A stretch of DNA of 64,000 nt, taken from assembly GCA_020725545.1 (NCBI GenBank), contig DYEV01000030.1:1-64000 (forward strand). The letters are read 5' to 3'. Each line of letters starts with the position of its first letter. The stretch's first letter is position 1. Positions 25,701 through 63,965 of the stretch are shown here, piece after piece. Both the position numbers and the translations under genes were made by a program. This DNA is from Desulfobacca sp. GTDB lineage: Bacteria > Desulfobacterota > Desulfobaccia > Desulfobaccales > Desulfobaccaceae. The notes beneath the pieces were generated by a model. That model did no database searches and was not told the origin of the DNA. It saw nothing but the letters and a program-made list of their open reading frames with translations.

Positions 25701-27935
25701 GAATTGGGCATAGACATCGCCACCCTCAATGTCGTCAATATGCGGAATGTTCCCCCGACCCCGGCCAACTATGCCCAAAGAAGCGGCCGGGCCGGGAGGA
25801 GCGGGCAGCCAGCTCTGGTGTATTCCTATTGCACCACCGGCAGCCCGCATGACCAGTATTTTTTTAAACGCCCGGAGCAGATGGTGTCCGGCTCAGTGAC
25901 CCCGCCGAGATTGGAACTGGCGAATGAGGACCTCATTAAATCTCATATTCAGGCAGTGTGGCTGGCGGCCACCGGCCTCTCCTTGGGTAGTTCTTTGCGG
26001 GATATTCTGGACGTGAGCGGCGATAGTCCCACCTTGGAGCTTCAACAACAAATCAAGGATGCCATCAATGATGCCAAGGCGAAGCAGAAAACTCTCCAAC
26101 AGAGCAAGGCTATCTTATCGACCCTGGTCGAGGAGTTGCAGGCAGCGGATTGGTATAGCGAAGGATGGCTGGATGAAACTTTAAACCAGGTGGGGCTGGC
26201 CTTTGATCAGGCCTGCGAACGCTGGCGGTCTCTCTATCGGGCCGCCGCCAGGCAGCGGGAGATGCAAAATAAAATCATCGGTGATGCTTCGGCAAGCGCC
26301 GAGAATAAAAAACAGGCCAAGCGGTTGCGCATGGAAGCCGAGGCCCAAATGGACCTTTTGCTGGAAACCAAAAACATTATGCAGTCTGACTTTTACAGCT
26401 ACCGCTATTTTGCCAGTGAAGGTTTCTTGCCGGGCTATAACTTCCCCCGCCTGCCATTATCAGCCTATATCCCAGGTCAACGCCACCACAAGGATGAATT
26501 TCTTTCCAGACCCCGTTTTCTGGCTATCTCCGAGTTCGGCCCCCGAGGCATCATTTATCACGAGGGTTCCCGCTTTCTCATCAACAAGGTTATTTTGCCG
26601 GTGGGCGAAGACGAGTTTCTCACTGCCGCTGCCAAACTCTGCCCGAACTGCGGCTACTTGCACCCGCTAGCCTTTGGTGGCCAAGGGGTGGATAACTGTG
26701 AGCAATGCCAGCAATTCCTTGAGCGTCCCATATGCCAGCTTTTCCGGCTGCAAAATGTGGCCACCAGGCGGAAGGATCGGATTAATTGCGACGAAGAGGA
26801 ACGCCTCCGTCTGGGATATGAGATAAAAACCGGCATCCGTTTCGCTTTGCATAAGGGAAACCTCTCCCTTCAAACGGCCACAGTGAATCATCCTGACCTG
26901 GGAACTCTGGCGACCTTGACTTACGGCCACGGTGCCACCCTGTGGCGCATCAATCTGGGTTGGAGCCGCAGGCAGAACAAAAATCAACTCGGCTTCGTGT
27001 TGGACACTGGAAGGGGCTATTGGGCCAAAAACGATCTACTTACGGCGGAGGAAGATGACTCTGACCCCATGAGTGCCAAGACTGTCAGAGTGGTCCCATA
27101 TGTGGAAGACCATCGCAACTGTCTTTTACTCACACCCGCCCAGGTCCTGGATAAGAATCAGATGGCTTCCCTGCAAGCGGTGGTAAAACGGGCCATTCAG
27201 GCCTACTTTCAATTGGAGGACAATGAATTGGCCGCCGAACCTCTCCCGAACCAGGACGAACGCCGGATGATCCTCTTTTATGAGGCTGCCGAGGGCGGGG
27301 CGGGCGTTTTGCGGCAACTGATCGCCACTCCCGATGCAGTTGCGGAAGTTGCCAAGGCGGCCCTGGACATCTGCCACTTTGATCCCCAAAACGGGGAAGA
27401 TAAACGTCGTGGCCCCCGTGCCCGAGAAGACTGTGAAGCCGCCTGTTATGATTGTTTATTAAACTACGGCAATCAGCGGGACCACCAGCTTTTAGACCGA
27501 CAGACCATTAAAGATTTTTTGTATCAACTCAGCCAAGCACGCACCTCTGTGTCCCCGGTGGGGATACCCAGGTCGGAGCATCTCAAGAAGCTTATGACCC
27601 TGGCCGGTTCTGATCTGGAACGAAGCTGGCTCGGTTTTCTGGAGGACCGGCGGCTGCACCTGCCTTCCCGAGCCCAATACTTTATGGACAAGTGCAAGAC
27701 CCGGCCGGATTTTATCTATGATGAGCATTTAGCGGTTATTTACGTGGACGGCCCGCCGCATGATTATCCCGAGCGGCAGAAAAGAGATGCAGAACTGACC
27801 ACCTGTTTGGAAGATTTGGGATATACCGTAATCCGCTTCCGCCATCAGGATGACTGGGAAAGCATCATTGCGAAATTCCCCCACATCTTCGGGGTAGTTA
27901 AAAAAATCAAGGGGTTTGAAAGTTGGAAACGGTGA
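22728..27935 (+). CDS. Helicase-DUF1998-nuclease fusion protein, DISARM/Druantia-like
   Basis: 1735 residues. An SF2 helicase core has Walker A TGTGSGKS (113-120), a DELH box (231-234, not DEAH) and SAT (266-268). Motif VI lies in [12 protein letters not shown]. Several zinc-finger-like CxxC pairs follow (FCREC, FCLNC, CPNC, CEQC). A DUF1998/MZB region includes [15 protein letters not shown]. The last 110 residues look like a Vsr/DUF559-type endonuclease fold: [17 protein letters not shown], then [14 protein letters not shown] splits the helicase (drmA) and DUF1998 (drmB); here they are one chain with an added nuclease. It overlaps the SNF2 gene start. Confidence 0.85.
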
Positions 27936-30754
27936 AAAGTTTTGCCGTCGGCTCCCTGGTGAAGGCCAGAGGCCGGGAATGGGTGGTTCTGCCCGAGTCC
28001 CAGACAGATATGCTCATACTCCGCCCTTTGGGAGGGACCGAAGATGAGGTAACCGGCATTTATCTTCCCTTGGAGCCGGTAACGCCGGCAGCCTTTGCGC
28101 TTCCCGATCCCAGTGAAATCGGCGATTTTCGTTCCTGCCGCCTGCTCCGGGACGCCGTCCGTCTGGGCTTCCGCTCCAGTGCCGGTCCTTTCCGGTCCTT
28201 TGCCAAGATCGCCGTGGAACCTCGGCCTTACCAATTGGTGCCGCTGCTCATGGCCCTGAAACTTGACCCGGTCCGGCTGCTGATCGCCGATGATGTGGGC
28301 ATCGGCAAGACCATTGAAGCCGGGCTGGTCGTCCGGGAACTCCTTGATCGTGGCGAAATCACCCGCCTCACCGTTCTCTGCCCACCGCACCTGGCCGAGC
28401 AATGGCAGGCTGAACTGGCGGAAAAATTTCATCTTGCCGCCGAACTGGTCTTGCCCAGCACTGTTACCCGACTGGAGCGGGTCTGTGCCGTCGGTCAATC
28501 CCTGTTTGAGGTCTATCCTTATACCATTGTTTCTCTGGATTACATCAAGTCTGATCGCCGCCGGGATGAGTTTTTGCGGACCTGCCCGGAACTGGTAGTG
28601 GTAGACGAGGCCCATACCTGCGCCCAGGCTGATGCCCAAAGCCGCAGCCGGCAACAGCGGCATCACTTGCTCCAGGGGTTGGCGAAAAATCCTGACCGCC
28701 ACCTAATTCTGGTTACGGCTACTCCTCATAGCGGCAAAGAAGAAGCCTTTCGCTCTCTCCTGGCCTTACTTGACCCTGCCTTCGCTAATCTCCCGGCAGA
28801 ATTGGGCGGTCCACAGAACGAACCCCACCGCCGACGCCTAGCCGCCCATCTGGTCCAACGCCGTCGGGGTGATATTCGCCACTATCTGCAGGCGGAAACC
28901 CCCTTCCCACTCCGGGAGGAAGCCGAAGAAACCTATGTGCTGGGGGAAGGCTCAGACTATAAAAAGCTCTTTGACCGGGTGCTGAAATATGCCCGTCAGA
29001 CCGTCGCTATCAAGGAAGGCGGCGAGCATCGGCAGCGGGTGCGCTGGTGGTCCATGCTGGCCCTGTTGCGCTCCCTGGCCAGCAGCCCGGCAGCAGCGGC
29101 GGCGACGTTGCGGAACCGCTCCAATGTCGCCGACACCGACTCAGTTGACGCCGCTGACGAGATCGGCCAACGCACTATTCTTGATCTGGACCTGGATGAG
29201 GTCGGCGACCGCGTCGACATCATTCCCGGCTCTGATTATGAGAGCAGCCAGTTTCAGGAGGACCGCCAGCGGCGTTATCTGCTGCAACTGGCCCGAGAAG
29301 CCGAAGCCTTGCAAGGGGCTAAGGATAGTAAACTGGAAAAAGCATTGCTTCTGATTAAGGGTTTTCTCAAAGACGGTTTTCACCCCATAATCTTCTGCCG
29401 CTTCATTCCCACCGCCGAGTATGTCGGTCAGGCTTTGCGGCAAGCCTTGCCGGGGGACGTGGAAGTGGGAGTAGTCACCGGCAATCTGCCCCCCGCTGAG
29501 CGGGAGGAGCGAGTGCTCAGATTAGGGGAGAGCCCCAAGCGGGTCCTGGTTTGCACTGATTGCCTGAGCGAAGGGATCAACCTCCAGGATCATTTTGATG
29601 CCGTCATGCACTATGACCTGAGCTGGAATCCTACCCGCCATGAACAACGGGAGGGGCGGGTGGACCGTTTCGGGCAGCCCCGGGATAAGGTCAGGGTCCT
29701 GACTTATTACGGCCTGGATAATCAAATCGACGGCATTGTTCTGGATGTGCTGCTGCGCAAGCATAAGAAAATCCGCAGTTCCCTGGGCATCTCCGTGCCG
29801 GTGCCGGTGGCCGCCCACCAGGTGGTGGAGGCTATTTTTGAGGGGCTGCTCTTGAGAGAACAATCCGGCCACACCCAGCTCTCCTTTGATTTTTTGGACG
29901 CGGTAAAAAAAGACGAACTTCACGCCCAATGGGATCAGGCCAGCGAACGGGAAAAACGTTCCAAAACCATGTTTGCCCAGGAAACCATTAAAGTGGCCGA
30001 AGTGGCCCAGGAAATGGAAGCGGCTCGGGCTGCCGTGGGCTCCGGCGTGGACGTGGCAAATTTTTTTCAGGAAGCGCTGCAAACCTTTGGGGCCACTGTC
30101 ACGGCGCCTAAGAGGGGCTATCATTTTGATCTGCGGGAGACGCCCCGGGCGCTTCGGGAAGCCTTGGGGCAGGGCGATGCTTTTGAGGCCCGTTTCGAGC
30201 TCCCGGTGGGCGACAAGATCATTTACCTGCATCGCACCCATCCCCTGGTGGAGACCCTGGCCGGTTATGTCATGAACACGGCCCTGGACCCGCTCACACC
30301 AGGCATCGCCCGCCGCTGCGGGGTAATTCGCACCCGCCAGGTGGAAAAGCGCACCACCCTGCTCCTGATGCGGTACCGGTATCACCTCATTACCACCAAG
30401 GCCGGGGTAGAGAAACAACTGCTGGCGGAAGATTGTCAGCTCCTGGGCTTTGCCGGAGCCCCGGAAAAGGCTCAGTGGCTGCCGGCAGAAGCCCTGACGC
30501 CGCTGCTGGCCTGTCAGCCCGATGCCAATATCAACCCTGACCAGGCTTCCCAGTTTGTGGCCAAAGTCATTGCCGGTATGCCCGCTTTACAGCCTCACCT
30601 GGAAGGCGCGGCGGTCAGGCGGGGTGAAGCTCTCTTGGAGGCCCACCGCCGGGTGCGCACCGCCGCCCGGCTGAAGGAGGTGCACCATCGGGTGGAGCCG
30701 CACCTGCCGCCGGATGTTTTGGGGATATACGTTTATTTGCCTGTCGTTGATTGA
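27923..30754 (+). CDS. SNF2-family helicase, DrmD-like
   Basis: 943 residues. N-terminal SNF2 motor: Walker A region DDVGIGKTIEAG (near 122), CPPHLAEQW, and VVDEAH (near 226). The C-terminal helicase domain has FCRFIPTAEYVG and motif VI QREGRVDRFGQ. The C-terminal 350 residues are not recognised. This matches DrmD of class 1 DISARM. The start is uncertain: TTG at 27923 overlaps the helicase gene by 13 bp, and GTG at 27932 gives a 4-bp GTGA overlap. Either implies translational coupling. Confidence 0.85.
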   Translation: METVKSFAVGSLVKARGREWVVLPESQTDMLILRPLGGTEDEVTGIYLPLEPVTPAAFALPDPSEIGDFRSCRLLRDAVRLGFRSSAGPFRSFAKIAVEPRPYQLVPLLMALKLDPVRLLIADDVGIGKTIEAGLVVRELLDRGEITRLTVLCPPHLAEQWQAELAEKFHLAAELVLPSTVTRLERVCAVGQSLFEVYPYTIVSLDYIKSDRRRDEFLRTCPELVVVDEAHTCAQADAQSRSRQQRHHLLQGLAKNPDRHLILVTATPHSGKEEAFRSLLALLDPAFANLPAELGGPQNEPHRRRLAAHLVQRRRGDIRHYLQAETPFPLREEAEETYVLGEGSDYKKLFDRVLKYARQTVAIKEGGEHRQRVRWWSMLALLRSLASSPAAAAATLRNRSNVADTDSVDAADEIGQRTILDLDLDEVGDRVDIIPGSDYESSQFQEDRQRRYLLQLAREAEALQGAKDSKLEKALLLIKGFLKDGFHPIIFCRFIPTAEYVGQALRQALPGDVEVGVVTGNLPPAEREERVLRLGESPKRVLVCTDCLSEGINLQDHFDAVMHYDLSWNPTRHEQREGRVDRFGQPRDKVRVLTYYGLDNQIDGIVLDVLLRKHKKIRSSLGISVPVPVAAHQVVEAIFEGLLLREQSGHTQLSFDFLDAVKKDELHAQWDQASEREKRSKTMFAQETIKVAEVAQEMEAARAAVGSGVDVANFFQEALQTFGATVTAPKRGYHFDLRETPRALREALGQGDAFEARFELPVGDKIIYLHRTHPLVETLAGYVMNTALDPLTPGIARRCGVIRTRQVEKRTTLLLMRYRYHLITTKAGVEKQLLAEDCQLLGFAGAPEKAQWLPAEALTPLLACQPDANINPDQASQFVAKVIAGMPALQPHLEGAAVRRGEALLEAHRRVRTAARLKEVHHRVEPHLPPDVLGIYVYLPVVD

Positions 30755-30785
30755 TTTGTCTCTGGCTTTGGAGATGTGATCCACA

Positions 30786-33700
30786 ATGCGCCACTCCCAT
30801 CGCGACCTTTTTATCACCGTCAAGACCGAAGGCGGCCTGCTGCCAGTGGACCTGCTGCAGCGTCTGGCCGAGGGCGACAAGGAACTGGACGGCCTCTCCC
30901 CGGAGTCCTATCATCTGGCCCCCCATGAAAAGTTGGGGGAAGTCATCAACCGGGCCTGGAATCGCCTGGTGGGGGCCTGGGCCTCCTTTCAAACCGCCGC
31001 GGCAGCCCTGCCCGAGTCCGACACCGGCACCACCCTCACCCGGGAGCGCTGGCTCCTCATCCTGTTTCAGGAATTGGGTTACGGCCGCCTCCTCCCCAGC
31101 AAGGCTCAGGAAATCGACGGCAAGGCCTACGCCATCAGCCACGCCTGGCAGCATACCCCCATCCACCTGGTCAGTTTTCGCCACGGCCTCGACAGCCGGG
31201 CGCCGGGCGTGGCCGGGGCCGCCCGCCTCAGTCCCCACAGCCTGGTGCAGGAATTCCTCAACCGCTCCGACCACCACCTCTGGGGCATGGTCAGCAATGG
31301 TTTGAAGCTGCGCCTGCTGCGGGATAATGCCAGTCTTACCCGCCAGGCCTTTGTGGAGTTCGATCTGGAAGCCATGTTCAATGGTGAGGTCTTTCCGGAT
31401 TTCGTTCTCCTCTTTCTGATCCTGCACCAATCCCGCCTGGAAGCCGAATCACCAGAGCACTGCTGGCTGGAAAAGTGGAGCCAGGAAGCCCAGCGCCGGG
31501 GCACCCGGGCCTTGGACCAACTCCGGCAGGGGGTCGAAGCGGCCTTGAAAACCCTGGGGCAGGGGTTCCTGGAACATCCGGCCAATACTGATCTGAGGAA
31601 CCGCCTGCAAGCCGGCCATCTCACCCCGGCTGTGCTCTACCAGGAGCTCTTACGCCTCATCTACCGCCTCATCTTTCTCCTGGTGGCCGAAGACCGGGAC
31701 CTGCTCCTGCCACCCGAGGCCGATGCCACCGCCCGGCGGCGCTATTATGAGTTTTACTCTCTCTCCCGGCTGCGCCGCCTGGCCCGGAGCCACCGGGGCA
31801 CCCGGCACGCCGACCTCTGGCAGGCCTTCGGCGTCACCTGCCGCTGTCTGGCACAGGGGGAACCGGCCCTGGGGCTGGCCCCCCTGGGCGGCTTCCTCTT
31901 TGCCCCCGAATCCCTGGCCAACCTCACTCATTGTGAGCTGAGCAATAAAGCCTTCCTGAGTGCCCTACGGTCCTTGTCATTTGTCGAAGCGCGGCGGCTG
32001 CTGCGTCCCATCGACTACCGCAATCTGGGCACCGAAGAACTGGGGAGCGTCTACGAGAGTCTGCTGGAATTGCATCCCCGGGTCAATGTCAGCGCCCGCA
32101 CCTTCGAGCTGGGCAGCGCCTCCGGCTCCGAGCGCAAGACCACCGGCTCGTATTACACACCCACTTCTCTCATAAACTGCCTCCTGGATTCGGCTTTGGA
32201 ACCGGTCCTGGCCTCGGCCCTGCAGCAGCCCGACCCGGAAAAGGCCCTGCTCAGTCTCAAAATCGTGGACCCGGCCTGCGGCTCCGGCCACTTTCTCATT
32301 GCCGCCGCCCACCGCCTGGGGAAACGCCTGGCTATGGTGCGCACCGGCGACATGGAGCCCGCTCCCGCCGAACGCCGCCGGGCCTTGCGGCAGGTGGTGA
32401 GCCATTGTATTTACGGGGTGGATGTCAATCCCCTGGCCGTGGAGCTGTGCAAGGTAGCCCTGTGGCTGGAGACCCTGGACCCCGGCCGCCCCCTGGGTTT
32501 CCTGGACCACCGGATCAAATGCGGCAACAGCTTGCTGGGGGCGACGCCCGCCCTGCTGAGCCAGGGGATTCCTGACGACGCCTTTAAACCAATCGAAGGT
32601 GATGACAAAGACTATTGCAGCAAGGCCAAAAAACGTAATAAAGCGGAGCGGCAGGCCCGCCAGCAGCAGAAACTGGATTTTCCCGCCGAGCCCTGGGAGC
32701 GCTTGGGGGACCTGGCCGCCGCCCTGATGCACGTGGAAGCCGTGGGTGAAGACACCATTGAGCAGGTGCAAGCCAAACAAGCCCGCTATGCCCAAGTGAT
32801 CAAGTCCAGCGGCTATCTCTTTAATCATCTCCGGGCCGACGCCTGGTGCGCCGCCTTTGTCTGGAAAAAGACGGAGGCCTTTCCTTACCCCATGACCCAA
32901 GGCATGTTGCGCCGCCTGGAAAAGAACCCCCATGATCTGCCCCCCTGGATGCGGGAGGAAATTCAGCGCCTGGCCACCGGATACCGCTTCTTCCACTGGC
33001 ACCTGGAATTCCCGGATGTCTTTCAGCCCAAGCCGGGGGCTGACCTATCAGACGATGAGGTGACTGGCTGGAGCGGCGGCTTTGACGTGGTGCTGGGTAA
33101 TCCGCCTTGGGAGCAAATGGAATTAGCGGAAAAAGAGTTCTTTGCCCCCCGTGATCCTGAAATTGCCCAGGCCCCCAACGCCGCCGCCCGGAAAAAACGC
33201 ATCGCCGCCCTGCCGGAGAGCAACCCCAGGTTGTGGGCCGATTTTCAGGCCGCCAAACGGGCCGCGGCGGGCGGCAGCCACTTTATCCGGCACTCGGGGC
33301 GCTATCCTTTAAGTGCCTATGGGCGAATAAATACTTATCAGATCTTTGCCGGGCTGGCCCGGCAGCTCGTTTCGTCCCGGGGCCGGGCCGGGATCATCGT
33401 CCCCTCGGGCATTGCCACCGATGACAGCAACAAGCACTTCTTCGCCCACCTGACCGACAAGCAGTCCCTGGTGAGCCTGTATGACTTGGAGAACCGGGAG
33501 GCCATCTTCCCTGGCGTGCATCGCTCCTATAAGTTCTGCCTCCTCACCCTGGGCGGGGCCGGGGCCGCCCCGGCGGGGGCCGATTTCGCCTTTTTCCTCA
33601 CCAATACCGAACAGCTGCGGGACGAGGAGCGCCATTTCATCCTATCTCCGGCTGACATCGCCCTCCTCAACCCCAACACCCGCACCTGCCCCATCTTTCG

Positions 33701-34838
33701 GAGCAAACGGGATGCCGAGATCACCAAGGCCATTTACCGCCGGGTGCCGGTCCTCATCGATGAGAGCCAGGGGGAGGCGGGAAATCCCTGGGGGATTTCT
33801 TTCAAACAAGGCCTTTTTAACATGTCCAGCGACTCCCGCCTCTTCCGCACCCGGGAGCAACTGGAGGGGGCAGGGTGGGAACTGCGGGGCAATGTCTTCC
33901 ACCGGGGCGAGGAGACCTGTCTGCCCCTGTATGAAGCCAAGCTCATCCACCACTATGACCACCGCTGGGCCACGTATGACAACGGGGAGACCCGGGCTTT
34001 AACTGCAGCCGAGAAGGCTGACCCCGACAGAGTCATCCTGCCCCGCTACTGGGTGCCGCAACCGGAAGTGCAGGCCCGCCTCCAGGGAAAGTGGGACCGC
34101 GCCTGGCTCCTGGGCTGGCGGGATATCGCCCGCTCCACCGACGAACGAACGGTCATCGCCGGGGTGGTGCCAAGGGTGGGGGTGGGTCATAAACTTCCTT
34201 TAATGTTCCCTGGTAACCTGAGGAAAGTAGATTCAACCGGTCTGTTGGCCAACCTCTCAGCTTTGGCTCTTGACTACATTGCCAGACAAAAAGTGGGAGG
34301 AACAAACTTAACCTTTTTTATTGTCAAACAAATTCCCCTGTTGCCACCCGAGACTTATTACAAATCTCTCCCCTGGCTCCCCACCGCTTCGCTCCAGGAC
34401 TTCCTCCTCCCCCGGGTCCTGGAGCTGACCTACACGGCCCAGAACCTGGCGGGCTGGGCCCGGGACCTGGGCTATACCGGCCCCCCCTGCCGCTGGGACG
34501 AAGAGCGCCGCTTCCTCATCCGCTGCGAACTGGACGCCCTCTATTTCCACCTCTACGGCCTTAACCGGGAGGACGCCGATTATATCCTGGAGACCTTCCC
34601 CATTGTCAAGCGCAAGGACGAGGAGCGCTACGGTGACTACCGCACCAAGCGGGTCATCCTGGAAATCTACGACGCCCTGGCAGAAGCTATCGACACCGGC
34701 CAGCCCTATCAGACCCGCCTGGACCCGCCGCCCGGCCCCCCGGCAAAGCCGCTCCCCGAATGGCAGCCCGGTCAGCCCCAACCACCGGATTGGCCAGCCC
34801 ATATCCATCCCCCGCAAGGGAGTCAAGATACCTCTTGA
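30786..34838 (+). CDS. Large adenine-specific DNA methyltransferase, DrmMI/Eco57I-like
   Basis: 1350 residues. [12 protein letters not shown] segment (near 455) precedes motif [17 protein letters not shown] (near 494). Motif IV is NPPW (near 771), marking an N6-adenine or N4-cytosine methylase; NPPW with this layout is typical of Eco57I/BREX/DISARM MTases. The long N-terminal region (about 450 residues) and C-terminal part probably recognise DNA. It lies 31 bp after the SNF2 gene, with GGAGATG before the ATG. It likely marks host DNA so the partner helicases spare it. Confidence 0.88.
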
Positions 34839-55052: not shown

Positions 55053-57686
55053 CTATTCCCAGGCGTCCTCAATCTTGCTGAGTATGGCCAGCTTCACCGG
55101 CTGGATTTTGCGGTAGACTTCCTCCGGGGACCGGAGGTGGCCGTCCACGGAGAGGAGATCCCGGTCGATGGCAATGCCGAAAAGCCGCTCATTCTCTTGC
55201 AGATACGGCTTTATGAGCTGCCAATCGGCGTCGGTAAAGGGCACCAGTTCGCCGCCGTTGAGCTGTTCCGGGACGACCATGCTGTAGGGGTCCCGGATGT
55301 AGACGGCACCGCCGGAGGCCAGGGAGAAGAGGTTGGAGCCGGGGTAGGGCGTGGCTTGCCGGCGCAGACGGCCCCGTTCGTCGTACTCCAGGCCGTTGAC
55401 AATGACAAAGCCGCCGTCTTTGAAGACGTCCCCGGCCATGAAGGACTCGGCCAGAAAATCCAGGGCCGTGCCGTTGATCACCACCCGGGGACGGCCCACG
55501 GCATTGATCAGGGGCCGGCCGGCGGCATTCCCCAGGACGTAGACCTCGCCGCCTTTGGCGCCATACATAAAAGTCTGGCCCACGTCGCCGTATACCACCA
55601 GTTTGCCCCGTTTCATGATCTGGCCCAATTGATCCTGGGCATTGCCATGCACGTAAATCTCCATGCCGTCGATGCCTGAAGCCAGGTAGTCGCCGGAGCT
55701 GCCGTAGACATCGATACGGACGCCGTCCGTACCCAGACCGAAGCCGCAGCCGGTGAAGCGCTGGCCCCGGTAGCCGTAGACCAAGAAGCGTTTCCAGCCC
55801 AGGTGATAAGCCTGGACTTGATAGCGGGCGTCGCAGTCGTCGCCCTCAGGGGGGAAGTCGGCGGCGTCCAGCACCAGAACGGCGTCAGCCTGGGGCGGGC
55901 CGGTCAGCCGGTCCCGGCTCTGCCAATCCAGGTGGCGGTAGCGGCTGGGATGTTCTTCCCCCACCGTGGGCGTGGCCCGGAAGATCGTCGTGAGGGCATC
56001 CATGGTGAGGCGGATAATATTGCTGCGTTTTTTGTCGCCGGGGTCAAACCGCCGGTCGTTGACCAGGGTCAGGCCATTGATAATGGCGGCCTTCAACTGA
56101 TCGTTCTCCTGGGCCAGACGGGTGAGGACCTGCAGGCGCTCCAGGTAGTTGGCATAATACCATTTGGGCAGCCGTTGGCTCAAAAAGGTGTAGAGGCTGC
56201 GGCCGGTGTCATCGGCCAGCAGGCTCCGCAGTTCGGCGGTGAGTTCCTCGTCCCGCTCCGGCAGGAGTTCGGGCACTTCGCCGCTCCAGGCCTTTTGGTG
56301 CCAGGGGAGGGTCTTGGGCACCCCGAATTTATCATAGCAATGTAAAACGTGGCGGCCGTTGTGTGGCTCCAGGGAAAAGATATAGGCGCCACCGTCCGTA
56401 TGGCTGCCGCCCCGGGCGTTCCAGTAGACATCGGCCACGGGGCAGATGCGGGGATCTTCCTGGGCCAGACTGCTCAAGGTGGCGTCGATAGCCTGTTTTT
56501 CGGAACAGAGCAGGCCGATCTGCACCTCGCCTTCCTGCAGGGCAAAAACCTGGGGCCGGAGCATGGAAGTATCGGTGATGCCGATCAATTCGTAGCGCCG
56601 CTTTTCCGGATCGTTCCGGGCGATAATAAAGAACCAGGGGCCGTCCGGCGAGCCGTGAATATGGGTGGTTTGAATCCACCGATAAATATTCCGACGTTTG
56701 GCCGGCAGCAGATCGAAATCCCGCTCCGTCGTGGGGGCCAGGGCTTCAATAACATACTCCAGGGGATAGCCATAGATGCGGTGCAGGAGGTCGAACATCA
56801 GCACGGCCACTTCCGTATCCGTCAGGAAGAGGGGATAGGTCTGGCGCTGACTCAGATACTCGCTCACCGAATGGTAATTGGCAAAGTCGCCGTTGTGTAC
56901 TAGCGCCATATTTAAGGCTGCGAAGGGATGGGCGCCGCCGGGGTGCCAGACCCGGCCCCGGGTGGGGTAGCGCTGGTGGGCGATCCAGATATGGGCCTTG
57001 AAATCCAGGAGATTATAATAAAGGGCCGCCTCCTCGGCATAGCCGACGATCTTCAGGATCATGATGTTGCGGCCCTGGGAGAGGACAAAGGCCTTTTTTT
57101 CCCCCAACGAGGCGTAATAGGTCTGATTCAGTTTATAACAATTCTGTGAGATAAATTCGTCTTCCACCCGCCGCCAAGCAAGGCCGTGCAGCTGATGGCG
57201 CTGGATAAAATGCTGCAAGACCTCGGTCTTGACCCGGACGAAATAGCGCCAGACCTCCGGCGGTTCCACCGTCAGGCCGGGGAGATCCCGCCAGTCGGCC
57301 ATGGCCGGCACCCGGCCGCTGGCATCCACCCGGAAAAACGGTTTGATGAACTTTTCTTCCACATCCGGCCTGACTCCCGGATCCAAGAAGGCAATCTGCA
57401 GGAGATAGTCATCCTCCAGGATTTCCCGGCTGACCCCCAAACTAGCGGGATCTAAACCGACCGCGGCAATGCCGCCGCCTTTGCCGTTGCCCCGATTGTG
57501 CATCTGGACGGAGGGTTGAAAGATGTGACGGCCAGAGACCGGGACATTGGCGGCAAAGCCGGTGACGCCACAACCACCTTCGGCCTCGGGTTCGATGCAT
57601 TGGCCTGGATGAAACGTCGGCCGCAGGTCCCGGCGGCTGGCCAGGAGTTTTTCGGTGTGTTCGTAGACAAAAGGATTAACTTTCAT
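55053..57686 (-). CDS. Glutamate synthase: class II amidotransferase + GXGXG domain
   Basis: 877 residues. The N-terminal Ntn-type amidotransferase begins after an internal cysteine in GGCGVTGFAANV (residue 39 onward; self-cleavage before Cys is possible). YPTRGRVWHPGGAHPFAALNMALVHNGDF carries the glutamine-binding and NGD residues in two stretches. The C-terminal 240 residues are the GXGXG beta-helix (GCGFGLGTDGVRIDV, GSSGDYLASGIDG). The FMN domain is on the next gene, as in archaeal-type split GltB. It supplies ammonia from glutamine. It shares a 4-bp ATGA overlap with the next gene. Confidence 0.9.
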   Translation of the reverse strand: MKVNPFVYEHTEKLLASRRDLRPTFHPGQCIEPEAEGGCGVTGFAANVPVSGRHIFQPSVQMHNRGNGKGGGIAAVGLDPASLGVSREILEDDYLLQIAFLDPGVRPDVEEKFIKPFFRVDASGRVPAMADWRDLPGLTVEPPEVWRYFVRVKTEVLQHFIQRHQLHGLAWRRVEDEFISQNCYKLNQTYYASLGEKKAFVLSQGRNIMILKIVGYAEEAALYYNLLDFKAHIWIAHQRYPTRGRVWHPGGAHPFAALNMALVHNGDFANYHSVSEYLSQRQTYPLFLTDTEVAVLMFDLLHRIYGYPLEYVIEALAPTTERDFDLLPAKRRNIYRWIQTTHIHGSPDGPWFFIIARNDPEKRRYELIGITDTSMLRPQVFALQEGEVQIGLLCSEKQAIDATLSSLAQEDPRICPVADVYWNARGGSHTDGGAYIFSLEPHNGRHVLHCYDKFGVPKTLPWHQKAWSGEVPELLPERDEELTAELRSLLADDTGRSLYTFLSQRLPKWYYANYLERLQVLTRLAQENDQLKAAIINGLTLVNDRRFDPGDKKRSNIIRLTMDALTTIFRATPTVGEEHPSRYRHLDWQSRDRLTGPPQADAVLVLDAADFPPEGDDCDARYQVQAYHLGWKRFLVYGYRGQRFTGCGFGLGTDGVRIDVYGSSGDYLASGIDGMEIYVHGNAQDQLGQIMKRGKLVVYGDVGQTFMYGAKGGEVYVLGNAAGRPLINAVGRPRVVINGTALDFLAESFMAGDVFKDGGFVIVNGLEYDERGRLRRQATPYPGSNLFSLASGGAVYIRDPYSMVVPEQLNGGELVPFTDADWQLIKPYLQENERLFGIAIDRDLLSVDGHLRSPEEVYRKIQPVKLAILSKIEDAWE

Positions 57687-59251
57687 TGCTGCCCTTTTAA
57701 CGTGGCGCCCCGGCGCAGGTCATCCTCCACCGGGCGGTCATAATAATCCAGGTGTACCAACAGATCAGTGCGGCCAACCAATTCTCTAATGCTCTTCAGT
57801 CCTAAGCGCCGCAAAATTTCCTTTAATTGCCAGACCCAAGCATAGTACATGTTGCTGATGCGGTTGAAACCCCATTCCACCTGCATGAGCTGGGTCATCT
57901 CCGGGTCGGTAGTAGCAATGCCCCGGGGGCAGCCCCGGCCCGATTCGCAGTTGTAGCAGCGGGTGCATTCCAAGGCCACCATTTCGGCGGTACCGATGAC
58001 CACGCCGTCCGCCCCCAGGGCAATGGCCTTGGCCACATCAAAGGCCGTCCGAATGCCGCCGGAGGCGATGAGGGTGACGCGATCCCGGATACCTTCCTGG
58101 CGCAGGAACTGGTGCACTTTGGGGATGGCATACTCGATGGGCATGGCGATATTCTTTTTGGCAATATCCGGCGCCGCGCCGGTGCCGCCGTAGCTGCCGT
58201 CCAGATGGATAATATGGGCGCCGGCGTCGTAGCTGCCCACCGCCACCATGTCCACATCGGTGGGCGTGGAGACCTTGACGGAGACCAGACAACGGGGATT
58301 GACCTCTTTGATCCAATCTACGTGTTTTTTGTGGTCCTCCACCGAATAAACACTGTGGAACGGGAAGGGCGAGAAGAGGGCGCTGCCGGCCACTGCCTCC
58401 CGCATGCGGGCCACGGCTGGCGTCACCTTGTCGCCTAAAAGGTGGCCGCCCAATCCTGGTTTGGCCCCCTGGGCATACTTAAACTCTACCACCCGCACTC
58501 GTTGAATGGTGTCCTCCCGTACCCCGAAAAGGCCGGTGGCCACCTGGGTGATGATATGATCATCATAGGGCATGAGGGCTTCGGGATAACCGCCCTCGCC
58601 GGTGCAGGTCAGGGTGTGCCATTTCACCGCAGCCTGGGTGCGGGCCAACATGGTGTGCAGACTGATGGAACCGAAAGACATGCCGCCGCCGTACCAAGGC
58701 ACCGCCAACTTCACTTGGGGCCGGCCGTCGGCCCGGCGATTCAGGACCAGATCCAGGGAGATCTCATCGTGGCTGAGTTTGGAATCTTTGAACTCCCGCG
58801 GAAAGATAAAGCGCATCTGATCGAACCCGCCACCCGAATCGCCGATGCGGTATTCAAGATCGGTATAGGGCAGGGTGCCGAATTCGGCCATCCACCAGGT
58901 GCTTAATAAAAGATCGGCGGTCCAGCGTTTGTCGCCGAAAGATCTGTAGTTGGGGTTCTGCACCAGCCGCAGGGCATTTTCCGGACACTGGTCAATGCAA
59001 TAGAACGATTCCTGCTGGCATTTAAAACCCAGACAGCGATAGCTCAACGGGCGGCGGAGAATGTTCTGTCCACCCCAGCTGTGCACCTCGTAGGGGCAAA
59101 CTTCCACACAACGCCCGCACTTGGTGCATTTCTTTTCATTGCGAATGACCCGATACTTGCTCAGCGGGTTTTTGAAGCGGCAGCCGGTGGTCTCCGGGCC
59201 GATGGCGACGGGCCCCTCATCGGTATAGATTTTTTCTGCTAACAGTGACAT
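57683..59251 (-). CDS. Glutamate synthase FMN domain with N-terminal ferredoxin
   Basis: 522 residues. An N-terminal 4Fe-4S region (CTKCGRCVEVCP, then CQQESFYCIDQCP) precedes the FMN/2-oxoglutarate barrel (PWYGGGMSFGSIS, KPGLGGHLLG, SVKVSTPTDVDMVAVGSYDAGAH in parts, and SGGIRTAFDVAKAIALGADGVVIGT). The cluster loop CTRCYNCESGRGCP follows. It reduces 2-oxoglutarate plus ammonia to glutamate. There is no NAD(P)H domain; ferredoxin is the likely donor. Confidence 0.9.
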   Translation of the reverse strand: MSLLAEKIYTDEGPVAIGPETTGCRFKNPLSKYRVIRNEKKCTKCGRCVEVCPYEVHSWGGQNILRRPLSYRCLGFKCQQESFYCIDQCPENALRLVQNPNYRSFGDKRWTADLLLSTWWMAEFGTLPYTDLEYRIGDSGGGFDQMRFIFPREFKDSKLSHDEISLDLVLNRRADGRPQVKLAVPWYGGGMSFGSISLHTMLARTQAAVKWHTLTCTGEGGYPEALMPYDDHIITQVATGLFGVREDTIQRVRVVEFKYAQGAKPGLGGHLLGDKVTPAVARMREAVAGSALFSPFPFHSVYSVEDHKKHVDWIKEVNPRCLVSVKVSTPTDVDMVAVGSYDAGAHIIHLDGSYGGTGAAPDIAKKNIAMPIEYAIPKVHQFLRQEGIRDRVTLIASGGIRTAFDVAKAIALGADGVVIGTAEMVALECTRCYNCESGRGCPRGIATTDPEMTQLMQVEWGFNRISNMYYAWVWQLKEILRRLGLKSIRELVGRTDLLVHLDYYDRPVEDDLRRGATLKGQQ

Positions 59252-59349
59252 GCGTTCCTGACTTCCTAAGCAAGATATTGAGGTTCAAGTTATTCCTAGC
59301 CAGTGGAAAAGAAACGGGGATGAGTGGGGAAACCTTTGGCTTCGACCCC

Positions 59350-60768
59350 CTAATTCGGATCCCGCTCCAGGGTTTCCGACCCCGGCGGGGCCTTGAACAG
59401 GGGCGCAAAGATTTCCCGTTCCAGATCCTCAGCGAACATGGCCCGGCCCACTTCACCGCGCAGACGCCGGACCTCCCGCAGGCCCATGGCCCCCAGGACC
59501 TCCAGCAGCTGGTTATTCCAGGCCCCCATCAGGTTGACCAGGCGTTGGCTGCCCCGGCGTTCGTGTATACCACCCAGATCCACCGGGCAGTCATCTCCCT
59601 CCTGGCAATGGGAGCAGAGGCGGCATTCCAAGGCCAGAAGGATGGGCAGGTCCACGGCCACACAATCCACCCCGCAAAGGATGGCTTTGGCCACATGCTC
59701 GGCCATGGCGATGCCGCCGCTGGCCACCAAAGTTACGGCATCCCGCAAGACGGCCTTGACCAAGCGCAGATGGACCTCCCGAATGAGGTCTTTCAAATGC
59801 TTGTCTCGGGCCTCGGCAAACCCTTGGGCATGATTATCCGCTTTGAGATGGAGGATTTCCGCCCCCGCCCCGGCCAAAGCCTCGCAGCGTTCAGTCGCCT
59901 GACCCGTGGCCGGGAGCGCGATGCTCACCAATAGGTTGGGCCAACGCCCCTTTAATCTATCGATGTCGGCAGTGATATTGGCATGATCCCACAGTTCAAT
60001 GATTCGCACTGAGCCGAGCACGGGATCGTCTAGATTCAGGGAGCCGGGCGAGTATTGCGGCATCAGATGCTGGGCCAGGGGGAGCAGGGCGCTGGTCAAC
60101 CCTTCCCGGGGGATAATGGCAAAGGTCTCCAGGATCTGGGCGGCTTGGGCCATGATCAGCCGAACCTTACTCTTATTGACGCCGATATCCGGTTCGGTCA
60201 GGAGCACCGGCAAGGGGATCTCCACCAGGGGGAAGACCGGCATAGTCAGCTCCCCGGCGGCATTAAAGGCCAAGAAAAGGGGCTTGCGGCCCAGGTCCAC
60301 GGTGGTGCTGATATACTCCCGGCCGTGGATGCCATCCCGGGTGGGCCGAACGATCTCCGACATGTCGGTCCAGATGGAGTCGAACCCCGGACCCTTGAAG
60401 GGTCCGCCGTAGCCGGCCCCGGACACCGGGATGCGGCCGGTTTCCGCCTGATACCAGGTCGTCGTGATGATCTCTTTGGTCCAATAGGAGTCGCCCAACA
60501 GGTTGTATTCCGGGTTCATGGCCTTCGTGATCAGCTCCCGGGGACAGCCCTGCACACAGCGGAAACAGTTTTTACAGAGGCTGTCGATGGTATCCGTCAG
60601 GCTGCGGTCATCAAAGGTCCGGTTACGGAAAGCCTCATAGGGGCAGGTCTCTTTCACGCAGCGGGTGCAGCGCAGGCAGCCTTCGCCCCAATCCAGCACG
60701 GTGCCCTTGCCCACCGCTTTAAACCGGGGCGGCACCTGGCGGACCGGGATATGATATTTTTTGGGCAT
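59350..60768 (-). CDS. Second FMN/ferredoxin glutamate-synthase-like protein
   Basis: 472 residues, a paralogue of the adjacent gene. N-terminal clusters CLRCTRCVKETCP and CKNCFRCVQGCP are followed by an FMN-type barrel (VTLVASGGIAMAEHVAKAILCGVDCVAVD) and a cysteine loop CRLCSHCQEGDDCP. It lacks parts of the substrate loop seen in its neighbour, so it may transfer electrons rather than make glutamate. 98 bp separate it from the next gene, without a terminator. Confidence 0.85.
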   Translation of the reverse strand: MPKKYHIPVRQVPPRFKAVGKGTVLDWGEGCLRCTRCVKETCPYEAFRNRTFDDRSLTDTIDSLCKNCFRCVQGCPRELITKAMNPEYNLLGDSYWTKEIITTTWYQAETGRIPVSGAGYGGPFKGPGFDSIWTDMSEIVRPTRDGIHGREYISTTVDLGRKPLFLAFNAAGELTMPVFPLVEIPLPVLLTEPDIGVNKSKVRLIMAQAAQILETFAIIPREGLTSALLPLAQHLMPQYSPGSLNLDDPVLGSVRIIELWDHANITADIDRLKGRWPNLLVSIALPATGQATERCEALAGAGAEILHLKADNHAQGFAEARDKHLKDLIREVHLRLVKAVLRDAVTLVASGGIAMAEHVAKAILCGVDCVAVDLPILLALECRLCSHCQEGDDCPVDLGGIHERRGSQRLVNLMGAWNNQLLEVLGAMGLREVRRLRGEVGRAMFAEDLEREIFAPLFKAPPGSETLERDPN

Positions 60769-60780
60769 GGCGAGCTTCTC

Positions 60781-61467
60781 CTACAACCGTTGATCCGGCC
60801 GCACCACCCGCCGGGGGCCCCCGGCGCCGGCCTTGGACCAATCCATGCTGGGCTTGACGGTATAAAGGCGCTCCAATTCCCCCAGGCTCTGCAGCCGGTT
60901 GCAGATCTGCTCCCAGGCGCAGGGCACCGGCGGGTCATAAGCATGGGCCATATTGATTTCACACAGGCCGTTGCTGGCGCCGCCACAGGGCCCGTTCAGC
61001 AGCCGTTTGGCACAGCGGGAGATGGGACAGATGCCGCCGGTATAACCCAACTGGCAATCGCCGCAGCCCCGGCAGTTCTCCAGCCAGACGCCCCGCTCGG
61101 CGGTCTCCCCCAAAAACATGGTGTTCAGAGCCGGGAAGACCGGGATCTTCTCCAACCTGGCCGCCAAGGCCTGGACTCCGGCGCCGCAGGCCAAGGACAG
61201 GACCGCGTCAACATCCTGGGCGGCAGCCACCACGTCCACCAGAAATTCCTGGATACATTGGCGATCGACGCTGGTTTCCTTGAGCTCTGCTTCCCGGCCG
61301 GCCATCTGGAAGGCCAATTGCAAGGCGGCGGCCAGCTCCGCCGTCTCCCGCCGGCCGCCGCAGGCACTCTCGGCCACACAGGTATCACACCCGGCTAACA
61401 GGATCTTTTTGTAGCCGGTCAACATCTCTTGTAGTTCTTGTAAAGACTTGCGCTGTCCAACAATCAT
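60781..61467 (-). CDS. MetV-like (methylene-THF reductase C-terminal-type) Fe-S/zinc protein
   Basis: 228 residues. Cysteine motifs CDTCVAESACGG near the N-terminus, CRGCGDCQLGYTGGICP and CAKRLLNGPCGGASNGLCE match MetV, the partner of MetF in acetogens and sulfate reducers. No metF gene is in the window. AAAGGAG precedes the ATG. It lies 12 bp from the next gene and 10 bp from the previous one, so it is in the same operon. Confidence 0.85.
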   Translation of the reverse strand: MIVGQRKSLQELQEMLTGYKKILLAGCDTCVAESACGGRRETAELAAALQLAFQMAGREAELKETSVDRQCIQEFLVDVVAAAQDVDAVLSLACGAGVQALAARLEKIPVFPALNTMFLGETAERGVWLENCRGCGDCQLGYTGGICPISRCAKRLLNGPCGGASNGLCEINMAHAYDPPVPCAWEQICNRLQSLGELERLYTVKPSMDWSKAGAGGPRRVVRPDQRL

Positions 61468-61477
61468 ATCTGCTCCT

Positions 61478-61894
61478 TTAAGCCGCCGGCCGGGGACGGG
61501 CCGGATTGGGGGGAAGGTCCTTGCGTCGCTGCTGGATCTCCGCCGCCACGGCGGCTAATCCCTCAGGATTGCCGGCTGCCACCCGGGAAAAGCCCAGGCG
61601 CGCCGTTTCCAGCCCCAATTCCGCGAGATAACTCTGGGCATGGGCCACCCGGAATCCCATGCGGGTGCTGCCTTCCGCTAATTGGCAATATTGTTCGGGA
61701 CAGCCCACCACCCAGACCAGATCAGCGCCTTTGGCCAGAATGCGCAGCAGGTGAAAGGCCTCCACTTTGCTGCTGCAGGGCTCCTGGATGATATGGCCGC
61801 TCAGGCCGACCTCCTGCAAGGCCTGGCGCAAGGCTGACGGCTGCGGTACTGCCTGTGTGCAGGCCAGCACCACCACCTCCGGTTTCGGCTTCAT
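61478..61894 (-). CDS. MvhD-like hydrogenase iron-sulfur subunit
   Basis: 138 residues. The MvhD/FlpD-type pattern has cysteines in VVLACTQAV, EPCSSKVEAF and GCPEQYCQLAEGS, four in total. MvhD normally has a CxxC at the first site; here a single cysteine remains. It probably transfers electrons through a 2Fe-2S centre, in association with the MetV-like protein. I start at ATG 61894, preceded by GGGGTAGGA; a TTG at 61909 is part of that site. Confidence 0.78.
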   Translation of the reverse strand: MKPKPEVVVLACTQAVPQPSALRQALQEVGLSGHIIQEPCSSKVEAFHLLRILAKGADLVWVVGCPEQYCQLAEGSTRMGFRVAHAQSYLAELGLETARLGFSRVAAGNPEGLAAVAAEIQQRRKDLPPNPARPRPAA

Positions 61895-61980
61895 TCCTAC
61901 CCCTTTCAAAAATTATCGTAATTGCAAATTGTAACATGTTTTGAGAGTTTGGGAATATTTATTATTTATTTTGTTTTGAC

Positions 61981-62010
61981 AAAAAGAGGGGTAGAAAAAT
62001 CCCACCCCTC
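61981..62010 (-). terminator. Terminator of glnA
   Basis: On the minus strand GAGGGGT pairs with ACCCCTC around 11 nt, followed by TTTTT. It falls 40 bp after the glnA stop, separating it from the glutamate synthase operon. The AT-rich stretch 61915-61980 beyond it probably holds that operon's promoter. Confidence 0.85.
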
Positions 62011-62049
62011 CGTTAGGCAGTTCCCTAACTGCTGCAATAACGCCTTGCA

Positions 62050-63378
62050 CTAGAGAATAGGCAGATACCGTTCAATCTCGTAGTCGCTGACGTGCATGCG
62101 GTAGCGATCCCATTCGATCTTTTTGTTATCCAGGAATTTGGTGAAGATGTGTTCACCCAACGCGTCACGCACGAGTTCGCTCTTTTCCACCTCTTCGATG
62201 GCTTCGTACAAGCTGCCGGGCAAGGACTTGATGCCGAGCTGCTCCCGTTCGGCGGCTGACATATGGTAGATGTCCACTTCCACCGGTTCAGGCATGGGAT
62301 ATTTATTTTCAATCCCCTTGAGGCCGGCGGCCAACATCACGGCGAAGGCCAGATAGGGGTTGCAGGCCGGATCGGGGGCCCGATACTCGATGCGGGTGGC
62401 CGCTTCTTTGCCAGGCTTATACATGGGCACCCGCACCAGGGCGGAGCGGTTGCGCCGAGCCCAGGCGATATAGACCGGAGCTTCGTAGCCGGGCACCAGC
62501 CGTTTGTAGGAATTCACCCACTGGTTACAGATGCCGGTGATCTCCCGGGCATGGGTCAGGATGCCGGCGATATATGACTTGGCCACGTCGGATAAATGAT
62601 ACTGGTCTTTGGGATCATAAAAGGCATTTTTGCCGCCCTGGAAGAGGGACTGGTGGGTATGCATACCGCTGCCGTTGATACCAAAGATGGGCTTGGGCAT
62701 AAAGGTGGCATAGACGCCGTGCTGCCGGGCGATTTCTTTCACGGCCAGCCGATAGGTCATGGTCTTGTCGGCCATCTTCAGACCTTCATCATAGCGGAGA
62801 TCGATCTCGTGCTGCGAGTCGGCCACCTCGTGATGGGAGTATTCCACCCGGATGCCCATTTTTTCCAGAGCGAAGATAGTCTCCCGGCGCAGGTCGTTGC
62901 CCCGGTCCAAAGGCGTGGTGTCAAAGTAACCGCCCCGATCCAGGATTTCCGTGCTTTCGTTGTCGACGAAATAAAAATATTCCAATTCCGGACCGGTGTA
63001 ATAGGTGTAGCCTTTCTCCGCGGCTTTGGCCAGCATCCGCTTCAACACATAGCGGGGGTCGCCGGGATAGGGGGAGCCATCCGGCAGCAGGATGTCACAG
63101 AACATCCGGGCCACCGGCTGGTCATCGGGGCGCCACGGCAGGATCTGAAAGGTGGTGGGATCGGGTTTGGCGATCATATCGCTCTCTTCAATGCGGGAAA
63201 ACCCCTCGATGGAGGAGCCGTCGAACCCCATCCCTTCGGTCATGGCTTCTTCCAATTCTGAGGGCCGGATGGAAAAACTCTTTAACACCCCCAGGATATC
63301 GGTGAACCAGATCTGAATAAAACTGATCTGCCGATCCTTCACAGCCTGAAAGACATCTTCTACGGTCTGACAATTCAT
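62050..63378 (-). CDS. glnA: Glutamine synthetase type I (GSI-alpha-like)
   Basis: 442 residues. Signatures are FTDILGVLKSF, GFDGSSIEGF, the ATP-site GSGMHTHQSL and YRAPDPACNPYLAFA. Length and the lack of the about 25-residue insertion match the GSI-alpha group (Bacillus/archaeal type). A Tyr occupies the adenylylation-site position (DIYHM), but that alone does not show modification. It makes glutamine from glutamate, ATP and ammonia, supplying the GltB amidotransferase. GAGGTAAT precedes the start. Confidence 0.95.
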   Translation of the reverse strand: MNCQTVEDVFQAVKDRQISFIQIWFTDILGVLKSFSIRPSELEEAMTEGMGFDGSSIEGFSRIEESDMIAKPDPTTFQILPWRPDDQPVARMFCDILLPDGSPYPGDPRYVLKRMLAKAAEKGYTYYTGPELEYFYFVDNESTEILDRGGYFDTTPLDRGNDLRRETIFALEKMGIRVEYSHHEVADSQHEIDLRYDEGLKMADKTMTYRLAVKEIARQHGVYATFMPKPIFGINGSGMHTHQSLFQGGKNAFYDPKDQYHLSDVAKSYIAGILTHAREITGICNQWVNSYKRLVPGYEAPVYIAWARRNRSALVRVPMYKPGKEAATRIEYRAPDPACNPYLAFAVMLAAGLKGIENKYPMPEPVEVDIYHMSAAEREQLGIKSLPGSLYEAIEEVEKSELVRDALGEHIFTKFLDNKKIEWDRYRMHVSDYEIERYLPIL

Positions 63379-63560: not shown

Positions 63561-63965
63561 TTATGTGGGTATGCCGTCATTAATGAAGCGCCGTTTTTTC
63601 CGCTCATCAATATCGCCGGGATACATCACGGCCTCGTGTCCCCGCTCCCGGGTGCGGATGCGGATGGCCTCTTCCACAGCATAGACAAAGATCAGGCCAT
63701 CCCCGGCTTCCCCGGTATAAGCCGCGTCCAGGATCGTTTGGATGGTCTCCTCCAGATTAGCTTCGGAGAGGATGATATTCACCTGGATCTTGGTAAGCAT
63801 ATCCACCTGATAGGTGCCGGAACGGCCGGACAGGCGGATCCCGCCCTGCCGCCCATGCCCGCGGATTTCAAAGATATTCAGGCCGACGATGCCGATGGCT
63901 TCCAGGGCCGACTTGACATCATTGACTTTATCTTCCCGAATAATGGCCTCAATTTTTTTCAGCAT
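63561..63965 (-). CDS. glnB: Nitrogen regulatory protein PII
   Basis: 134 residues. Typical start MLKKIEAIIREDK, T-loop GRQGGIRLSGRSGTYQVD with Tyr52 at the uridylylation position (equivalent to Tyr51), B-loop TGEAGDGLIFV and the C-loop arginines RTRERG. The usual second loop Tyr46 is Gly here. A 20-residue basic/acidic tail (ERKKRRF) extends past the normal PII end. It senses ATP/2-oxoglutarate and would control glnA; 182 bp separate them. Confidence 0.93.
   Translation of the reverse strand: MLKKIEAIIREDKVNDVKSALEAIGIVGLNIFEIRGHGRQGGIRLSGRSGTYQVDMLTKIQVNIILSEANLEETIQTILDAAYTGEAGDGLIFVYAVEEAIRIRTRERGHEAVMYPGDIDERKKRRFINDGIPT

Follow-up and report, generated by a model that had tools for sequence, protein, structure and literature searches.

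When ammonia is scarce, it is assimilated mainly through the glutamine synthetase-glutamate synthase (GS-GOGAT) pathway, and in strict anaerobes the source of the electrons used by GOGAT is usually assumed. We analyzed a 64,000-nucleotide stretch of DNA (the window) from the genome (2.94 Mb in 38 contigs) of a Desulfobacca-like sulfate reducer that carries an operon with parts of several described systems. It shares with the NADPH-dependent GltBD (Azospirillum, E. coli) the glutaminase, FMN/2-oxoglutarate and GXGXG domains, and in that enzyme Fe-S clusters feed the FMN (PMC8097209). Unlike GltBD, the operon has no GltD, its catalytic half is made up of two proteins, there are additional proteins (a GltB paralogue, pGltB, and FlpD/MetV), and GltB2 carries four cysteines where GltBD has the three-cysteine [3Fe-4S] motif. 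The ferredoxin-dependent GOGAT (Synechocystis, 1ofd) also lacks GltD, but it is a single large ferredoxin-binding chain without pGltB, FlpD or MetV. The HdrABC-MvhD-MetVF complexes have MvhD, MetV, MetF and Hdr subunits in common with the fullest relatives of the locus (PMC9430772), although they include no glutamate synthase and their MvhD is canonical, and the window operon itself has neither MetF nor HdrABC genes. The F420-linked clusters of ANME archaea (FrhB10, FGltS) likewise combine glutamate synthase subunits with an alternative electron-input protein (PMC9012536), in their case an FrhB-type F420 protein instead of FlpD, MetV and pGltB. HdrL of Desulfobacterium autotrophicum, an Hdr/glutamate synthase fusion followed by MvhD, joins both sequence types (PMC2702500), but it is an Hdr protein encoded beside dsr or formate dehydrogenase genes and not within a glutaminase-containing GOGAT operon. 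No earlier description of the operon was found in open-licence PMC papers, and one may exist elsewhere.

Operon layout and catalytic subunits

On the minus strand, the genes follow each other in the order amtB-PII-glnA and then mvhD-like-metV-pGltB-gltB2-GXG, with amtB just outside the window (found at L200:1980-3248). The features inside the window are as follows.

55053-57686, minus strand: GXG, class II glutaminase (GATase) plus GXGXG domain, 877 aa (Pfam GATase_6 and GXGXG)
57683-59251, minus strand: GltB2, FMN/2-oxoglutarate catalytic subunit with an N-terminal 2x[4Fe-4S] ferredoxin domain, 522 aa (Pfam Glu_synthase, 313.6 bits, above the cut-off, and Fer4)
59350-60768, minus strand: pGltB, degenerate GltB paralogue, 472 aa (weaker Pfam Glu_synthase match and Fer4; alignments; model with an FMN-barrel fold)
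60781-61467, minus strand: MetV-like Fe-S protein, 228 aa (Pfam DUF5981, 110 bits)
61478-61894, minus strand: MvhD-like (FlpD) protein, GOGAT subtype, 138 aa from the ATG at 61894 (FlpD, 69 bits)
61985-62011, minus strand: terminator-like hairpin, 12 pairs followed by a T run, between glnA and the mvhD-like gene (consensus match only)
62050-63378, minus strand: glnA, glutamine synthetase type I (NCBIfam TIGR00653, 551 bits, above the cut-off)
63561-63965, minus strand: PII nitrogen regulator (Pfam P-II)

The first five genes had already been proposed, at these coordinates and on this strand, by a sequence-only reading of the window, and Pfam backed all their families. They are closely packed (10 bp between mvhD and metV, 12 bp between metV and pGltB, 98 bp between pGltB and gltB2, and a 4-bp overlap of gltB2 and GXG), and the mvhD-like gene could alternatively start at a TTG at 61909. 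The PII-glnA and amtB neighbors provide a setting that fits a role of the operon in nitrogen assimilation. The hairpin scan as a whole gave no more sites than shuffled sequence, so what supports the one after glnA is its stem of 12 pairs together with its position. Sigma-54 sites were not more numerous than expected by chance, and no known RNA families were found in the 54 to 64 kb region of the window. Among the relatives, a gene for a sigma-54 NifA/NtrC-like regulator was found near glnA in 14 clustered loci (e.g., L062:1645-3189) and is a candidate regulator of the block. Elsewhere in the window (22728-34838, plus strand), three large adjacent ORFs, coding for a helicase-like protein, a DrmD-like SNF2 helicase (332 bits, below the cut-off) and a 1350-aa protein with no NCBIfam match, are possibly an anti-phage defence island.

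As judged from their sequences, GXG and GltB2 retain the catalytic motifs and would make up the split catalytic half of a glutamate synthase. Cys39 of GXG is found in 89 of 89 relatives and N265, G266 and D267 in 87 of 87; Arg65 and the His-Asn-Gly-Asp motif at 264-267 are also invariant among the relatives. GltB2 could be aligned with solved glutamate synthases across the FMN/2-oxoglutarate motifs GAKPG and GGTGA, and it is the sole strong Glu_synthase match in the genome, the three others (pGltB among them) being weak. Since a protein of the glutamate dehydrogenase family is encoded as well, glutamate may have sources other than GOGAT. In sister Desulfobaccales, glnA has as a neighbor the gene of another FMN glutamate-synthase-like protein of ~540 aa (L107:94-1716, and similarly in L059, L060, L062, L102, L104 and L105), which is possibly also present in the genome studied here (C21:17917-18282, a weak Glu_synthase match of similar length).

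The claim that a GltD-type NAD(P)H subunit is missing held for the five-gene operon and could be extended to the genome. Only one standalone GltD-like ORF was found, and it adjoins an NfnA/PyrK-type ORF (an NfnAB-like pair), which led us to reject it as a GltD hidden elsewhere. The other GltD matches fall within large ORFs, one of which was shown to be an HdrA fusion. The genome appears to have no dedicated GltD.

The pGltB paralogue and the FlpD-type protein

Two FMN/ferredoxin glutamate-synthase-type proteins had been proposed, and this proved right for GltB2 but not for pGltB (59350-60768). In a joint alignment of 46 pGltB and 46 GltB2 sequences, pGltB keeps 38 of the positions invariant in GltB2 and loses 126. 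All twelve cluster cysteines (eight N-terminal and four C-terminal) and a GG motif are among the positions kept. The losses include the GGTGAAP loop and, in 46 of 46 sequences, a gap of ~45 residues that covers the segment GAKPG...SPFPFHSVYS. The absence of this active-site segment disposes of the idea of two functional FMN glutamate synthases in tandem, and pGltB is probably an electron-transfer subunit. A Foldseek search with the pGltB model (of moderate quality, mean pLDDT 75.8) returned FMN barrels, the closest glutamate synthase fold in the PDB being the ferredoxin-dependent GOGAT of Synechocystis (1ofd; TMq 0.43). The most conserved stretch of pGltB, residues 115 to 151 (WTDMSEIVRPTRDGIHGREY), has no counterpart in GltB2. 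It is nearly invariant, yet a model of the protein by itself gives it low confidence (pLDDT about 36), for which reason we read it as a probable subunit interface.

The protein read as MvhD-like belongs to the FlpD family but lacks hallmarks of a canonical MvhD: it has one cysteine at the CxxC site and is devoid of the ADLAG of the canonical YxAADLAG region. Across 104 MvhD sequences of GOGAT loci, C40, C65 and C70 are universal and C12 is present in 102, and the second cysteine of the canonical CxxC was found in 8 of the 104. By these sequence features the protein is a distinct FlpD subtype, and they weaken its candidacy as an ordinary Hdr adaptor. A simple motif test flagged ADLAG in four of the GOGAT-locus MvhDs (L066, L094, L102 and L143). 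Those of L066 and L094 are canonical MvhDs adjoining HdrA, so that the canonical type and the GOGAT subtype can share one locus; the other two flags we judge to be chance matches. Since the subtype lacks the canonical features and a separate canonical MvhD can accompany HdrA, FlpD may not dock directly on HdrA. The genome of the window also has canonical MvhD genes (C6:8600-8968, C25:180679-181047 and C29:210372-210740), all three with an in-frame TGA at a Cys position that probably codes for selenocysteine.

Five loci without MvhD (L077, L084, L092, L093 and L095) have, directly upstream of pGltB (16 to 52 bp away, or overlapping it), a gene for a GlcD-type FAD protein with an Fe-S region, the family being confirmed for L084. 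They form one clade in the pGltB tree, which makes the swap a single event. The C-terminal cysteine motif of pGltB has been lost in four of the five, and this suggests that the C-terminal cluster faces MvhD, with two exceptions: L093 keeps the motif without MvhD, and L091 has lost the cluster although MvhD is present. In the search of the GlcD-type genomes for the GOGAT-subtype MvhD, canonical MvhDs reached 132 bits in the controls, equal to some true ones.

Distribution and neighborhood of MetV, MetF and Hdr genes

At least 558 stretches in GTDB species genomes encode a pGltB relative, and 77 of the 297 genomes of the phylum searched have a strong match. The closest named relative among the matches listed is an uncultured Desulfobacca MAG (pGltB 91% identical). 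By their record titles, the matches include Desulfobacterota, Chloroflexi, Nitrospira, Omnitrophota, Poribacteria and Latescibacterota, but with many MAGs among the records misbinning is possible. A genome of the same genus (G003, one contig) has the order GlnA-MvhD-MetV-pGltB-GltB2-GXG (L058), and the cultured type strain Desulfobacca acetoxidans ASRB2 seems to have this operon as well.

Gene calls in the loci relied on our own profiles and stop-to-stop reading frames, and the trees are single-gene and partly quick. The commonest order in 114 non-redundant loci is MvhD-MetV-MetF-pGltB-GltB2-GXG. Upstream of pGltB, 46 loci have MvhD-MetV-MetF (plus 3 with a second MvhD), 22 MvhD alone, 8 MvhD-MetV, 3 MvhD-MetF and 9 none of these genes, the remainder being cut by contig ends or incomplete. 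In L062 and L110, MvhD and MetV are both absent beside pGltB. MvhD, alone or with MetV and/or MetF, is thus directly upstream of pGltB in most of the loci, and in several of them pGltB and GltB2 are fused. The recurrence of the same gene order across the phylum and beyond rules out a chance grouping and bears out the expected co-occurrence; in most of the 114 loci metV and mvhD are joined to gltB and not scattered away from it. MvhD and MetV had been paired as the electron-input set, and here it is MvhD that is nearly constant, while metF and metV are dispensable and many clusters keep MvhD alone.

In the relatives, inspection of the sequence between metV and pGltB revealed metF, which Pfam confirmed. 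Its presence changes nine times on the pGltB tree (quick method). All the MvhD-MetV loci belong to one clade that includes the lineage of the window, and some members have lost metV too; the neighboring branches have MetF, so the lineage of the window has likely lost metF. The GOGAT-operon MetF of one relative (G149, 99% complete) is the only MetF found in that genome and for this reason probably works as the methylene-THF reductase (MTHFR) of the cell. The GOGAT-linked MetVs, that of the window included, retain the cluster cysteines, and in the MetV tree the window protein falls among them, apart from the three other MetVs of its genome. They are strongly clustered, yet not in one clade. The one-clade topology expected if MetVF had entered GOGAT operons only once was disfavored (AU p 0.004 with a quick tree, and 0.031 with a careful one from which long rows and L115/L116 were left out), and with some long branches the evidence against a single recruitment is moderate.

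Direct adjacency of hdrA, hdrB or hdrC to the cluster, either upstream or downstream, was found in 11 loci (L066, L068, L078, L083, L090, L094, L097, L122, L124, L135 and L151) that are spread over several parts of the pGltB tree. Matches to Hdr family models, with scores under the strict equivalog cut-offs, confirmed representatives; L083 and L090 were recognized with phmmer alone. Less than one immediate hdr neighbor would be expected by chance, an estimate with an assumed number of hdr clusters per genome. The Hdr label changes nine times on the tree, with loci cut by contig ends scored as lacking Hdr. In the clade of L068, L097, L124 and L135, the hdr genes are downstream of the cluster; in these loci, a gene for a class I glutamine amidotransferase also separates the amtB-PII(-glnA) block from the MvhD gene. 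The HdrA of L094 holds a GltD-type NAD(P)H domain, of the same kind as that of Moorella HdrA, and in Sporomusa pulldowns HdrA interacts with both MvhD and MetV, and MetF with MvhD and HdrA (PMC9430772). The window genome has two large ORFs (~1,550 aa) near MvhD-MetV-MetF sets, one of them a confirmed HdrA with a GltD domain, and both could act in trans.

Overall, the sequence-only interpretation stands in part. Its Hdr/one-carbon link came out stronger than proposed, with metF between metV and pGltB in most relatives and hdr genes next to the cluster in the 11 loci. Nothing specific to hydrogen was found for the suggested link to hydrogen metabolism, the MvhD-like protein turned out to be of a distinct subtype, and the second FMN enzyme had to be dropped.

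Possible electron routes

The reading that we favor, and to which we give about an even chance, is a GOGAT without GltD that would receive its electrons by way of FlpD and pGltB from carriers of the Hdr/MetV type, possibly with electron bifurcation. It would serve ammonia assimilation, with a catalytic half split into the glutaminase-GXGXG subunit and GltB2, which would hold the FMN site. The NADPH-oxidizing GltD half would be replaced by an Fe-S input unit consisting of pGltB and the special FlpD/MvhD subunit, to which MetV would be an addition in the lineage of the window. Electrons would pass from an Hdr/MetV-type soluble electron-transfer system, through MetV where present, to FlpD, the pGltB clusters, the GltB2 clusters, FMN and finally 2-iminoglutarate. 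The assembly of the proteins into a single complex, the sequence of carriers and the supply by Hdr are what we infer from genes and sequences, and the absence of hdr genes from the window operon counts against feeding by Hdr. More doubtful is the bifurcation itself, in which HdrA would split electrons from NADH (or another donor) between ferredoxin and, via FlpD/pGltB, glutamate synthesis. As plausibility checks with assumed textbook potentials, a reaction driven by NADH, ferredoxin or methyl-THF would be favorable, and NADH bifurcation about balanced at physiological values.

It is also conceivable, if rather unlikely, that the enzyme is a ferredoxin-dependent GOGAT, with reduced ferredoxin docking on the Fer4 domains of pGltB/GltB2 and MvhD/MetV as accessories. 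Such a GOGAT is already known (PMC8097209), ferredoxin could dock directly on the N-terminal 2x[4Fe-4S] domains present in both GltB2 and pGltB, and MvhD and MetV are missing from the loci L062 and L110; the constant MvhD upstream of pGltB and the recurrent metF and hdr adjacency would, however, be left unexplained. We regard as improbable that MetVF and GOGAT are separate acceptors of one source (Hdr), co-transcribed because growth needs both and exchanging no electrons. The probable MTHFR role of the G149 operon MetF speaks for it, as does the second MvhD of some loci (L075, L078 and L094), one beside MetV and the other beside pGltB, but the lineage of the window retains MetV without an operon MetF. 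The gene order MvhD-MetV-MetF-pGltB could even indicate that methyl-THF is the donor, oxidized by MetF with MetV-MvhD-pGltB as the relay to glutamate synthesis, for which the assumed textbook potentials give about -27 kJ/mol. This seems very improbable to us, as operon metF is absent from the lineage of the window and from the MvhD-only loci, and D110, the MetF position that matches a catalytic Asp, is not among the 95%-conserved positions.

The apparent presence of the operon in a cultured type strain makes direct testing possible. If the GltD-less GOGAT fed through FlpD and pGltB is real, nitrogen assimilation would be connected to one-carbon energy metabolism by a widespread GOGAT with Fe-S input and a genetic tie to methylene-THF reductase and Hdr, and this would account for genomes that seemingly have no GltD. 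The recurrence of the arrangement in hundreds of anaerobes suggests that ammonia assimilation may be powered in a way not recognized before. In flavin-based electron bifurcation, GOGAT could also serve as a new acceptor of high potential and, were the bifurcating version true, its exergonic step would help make reduced ferredoxin.
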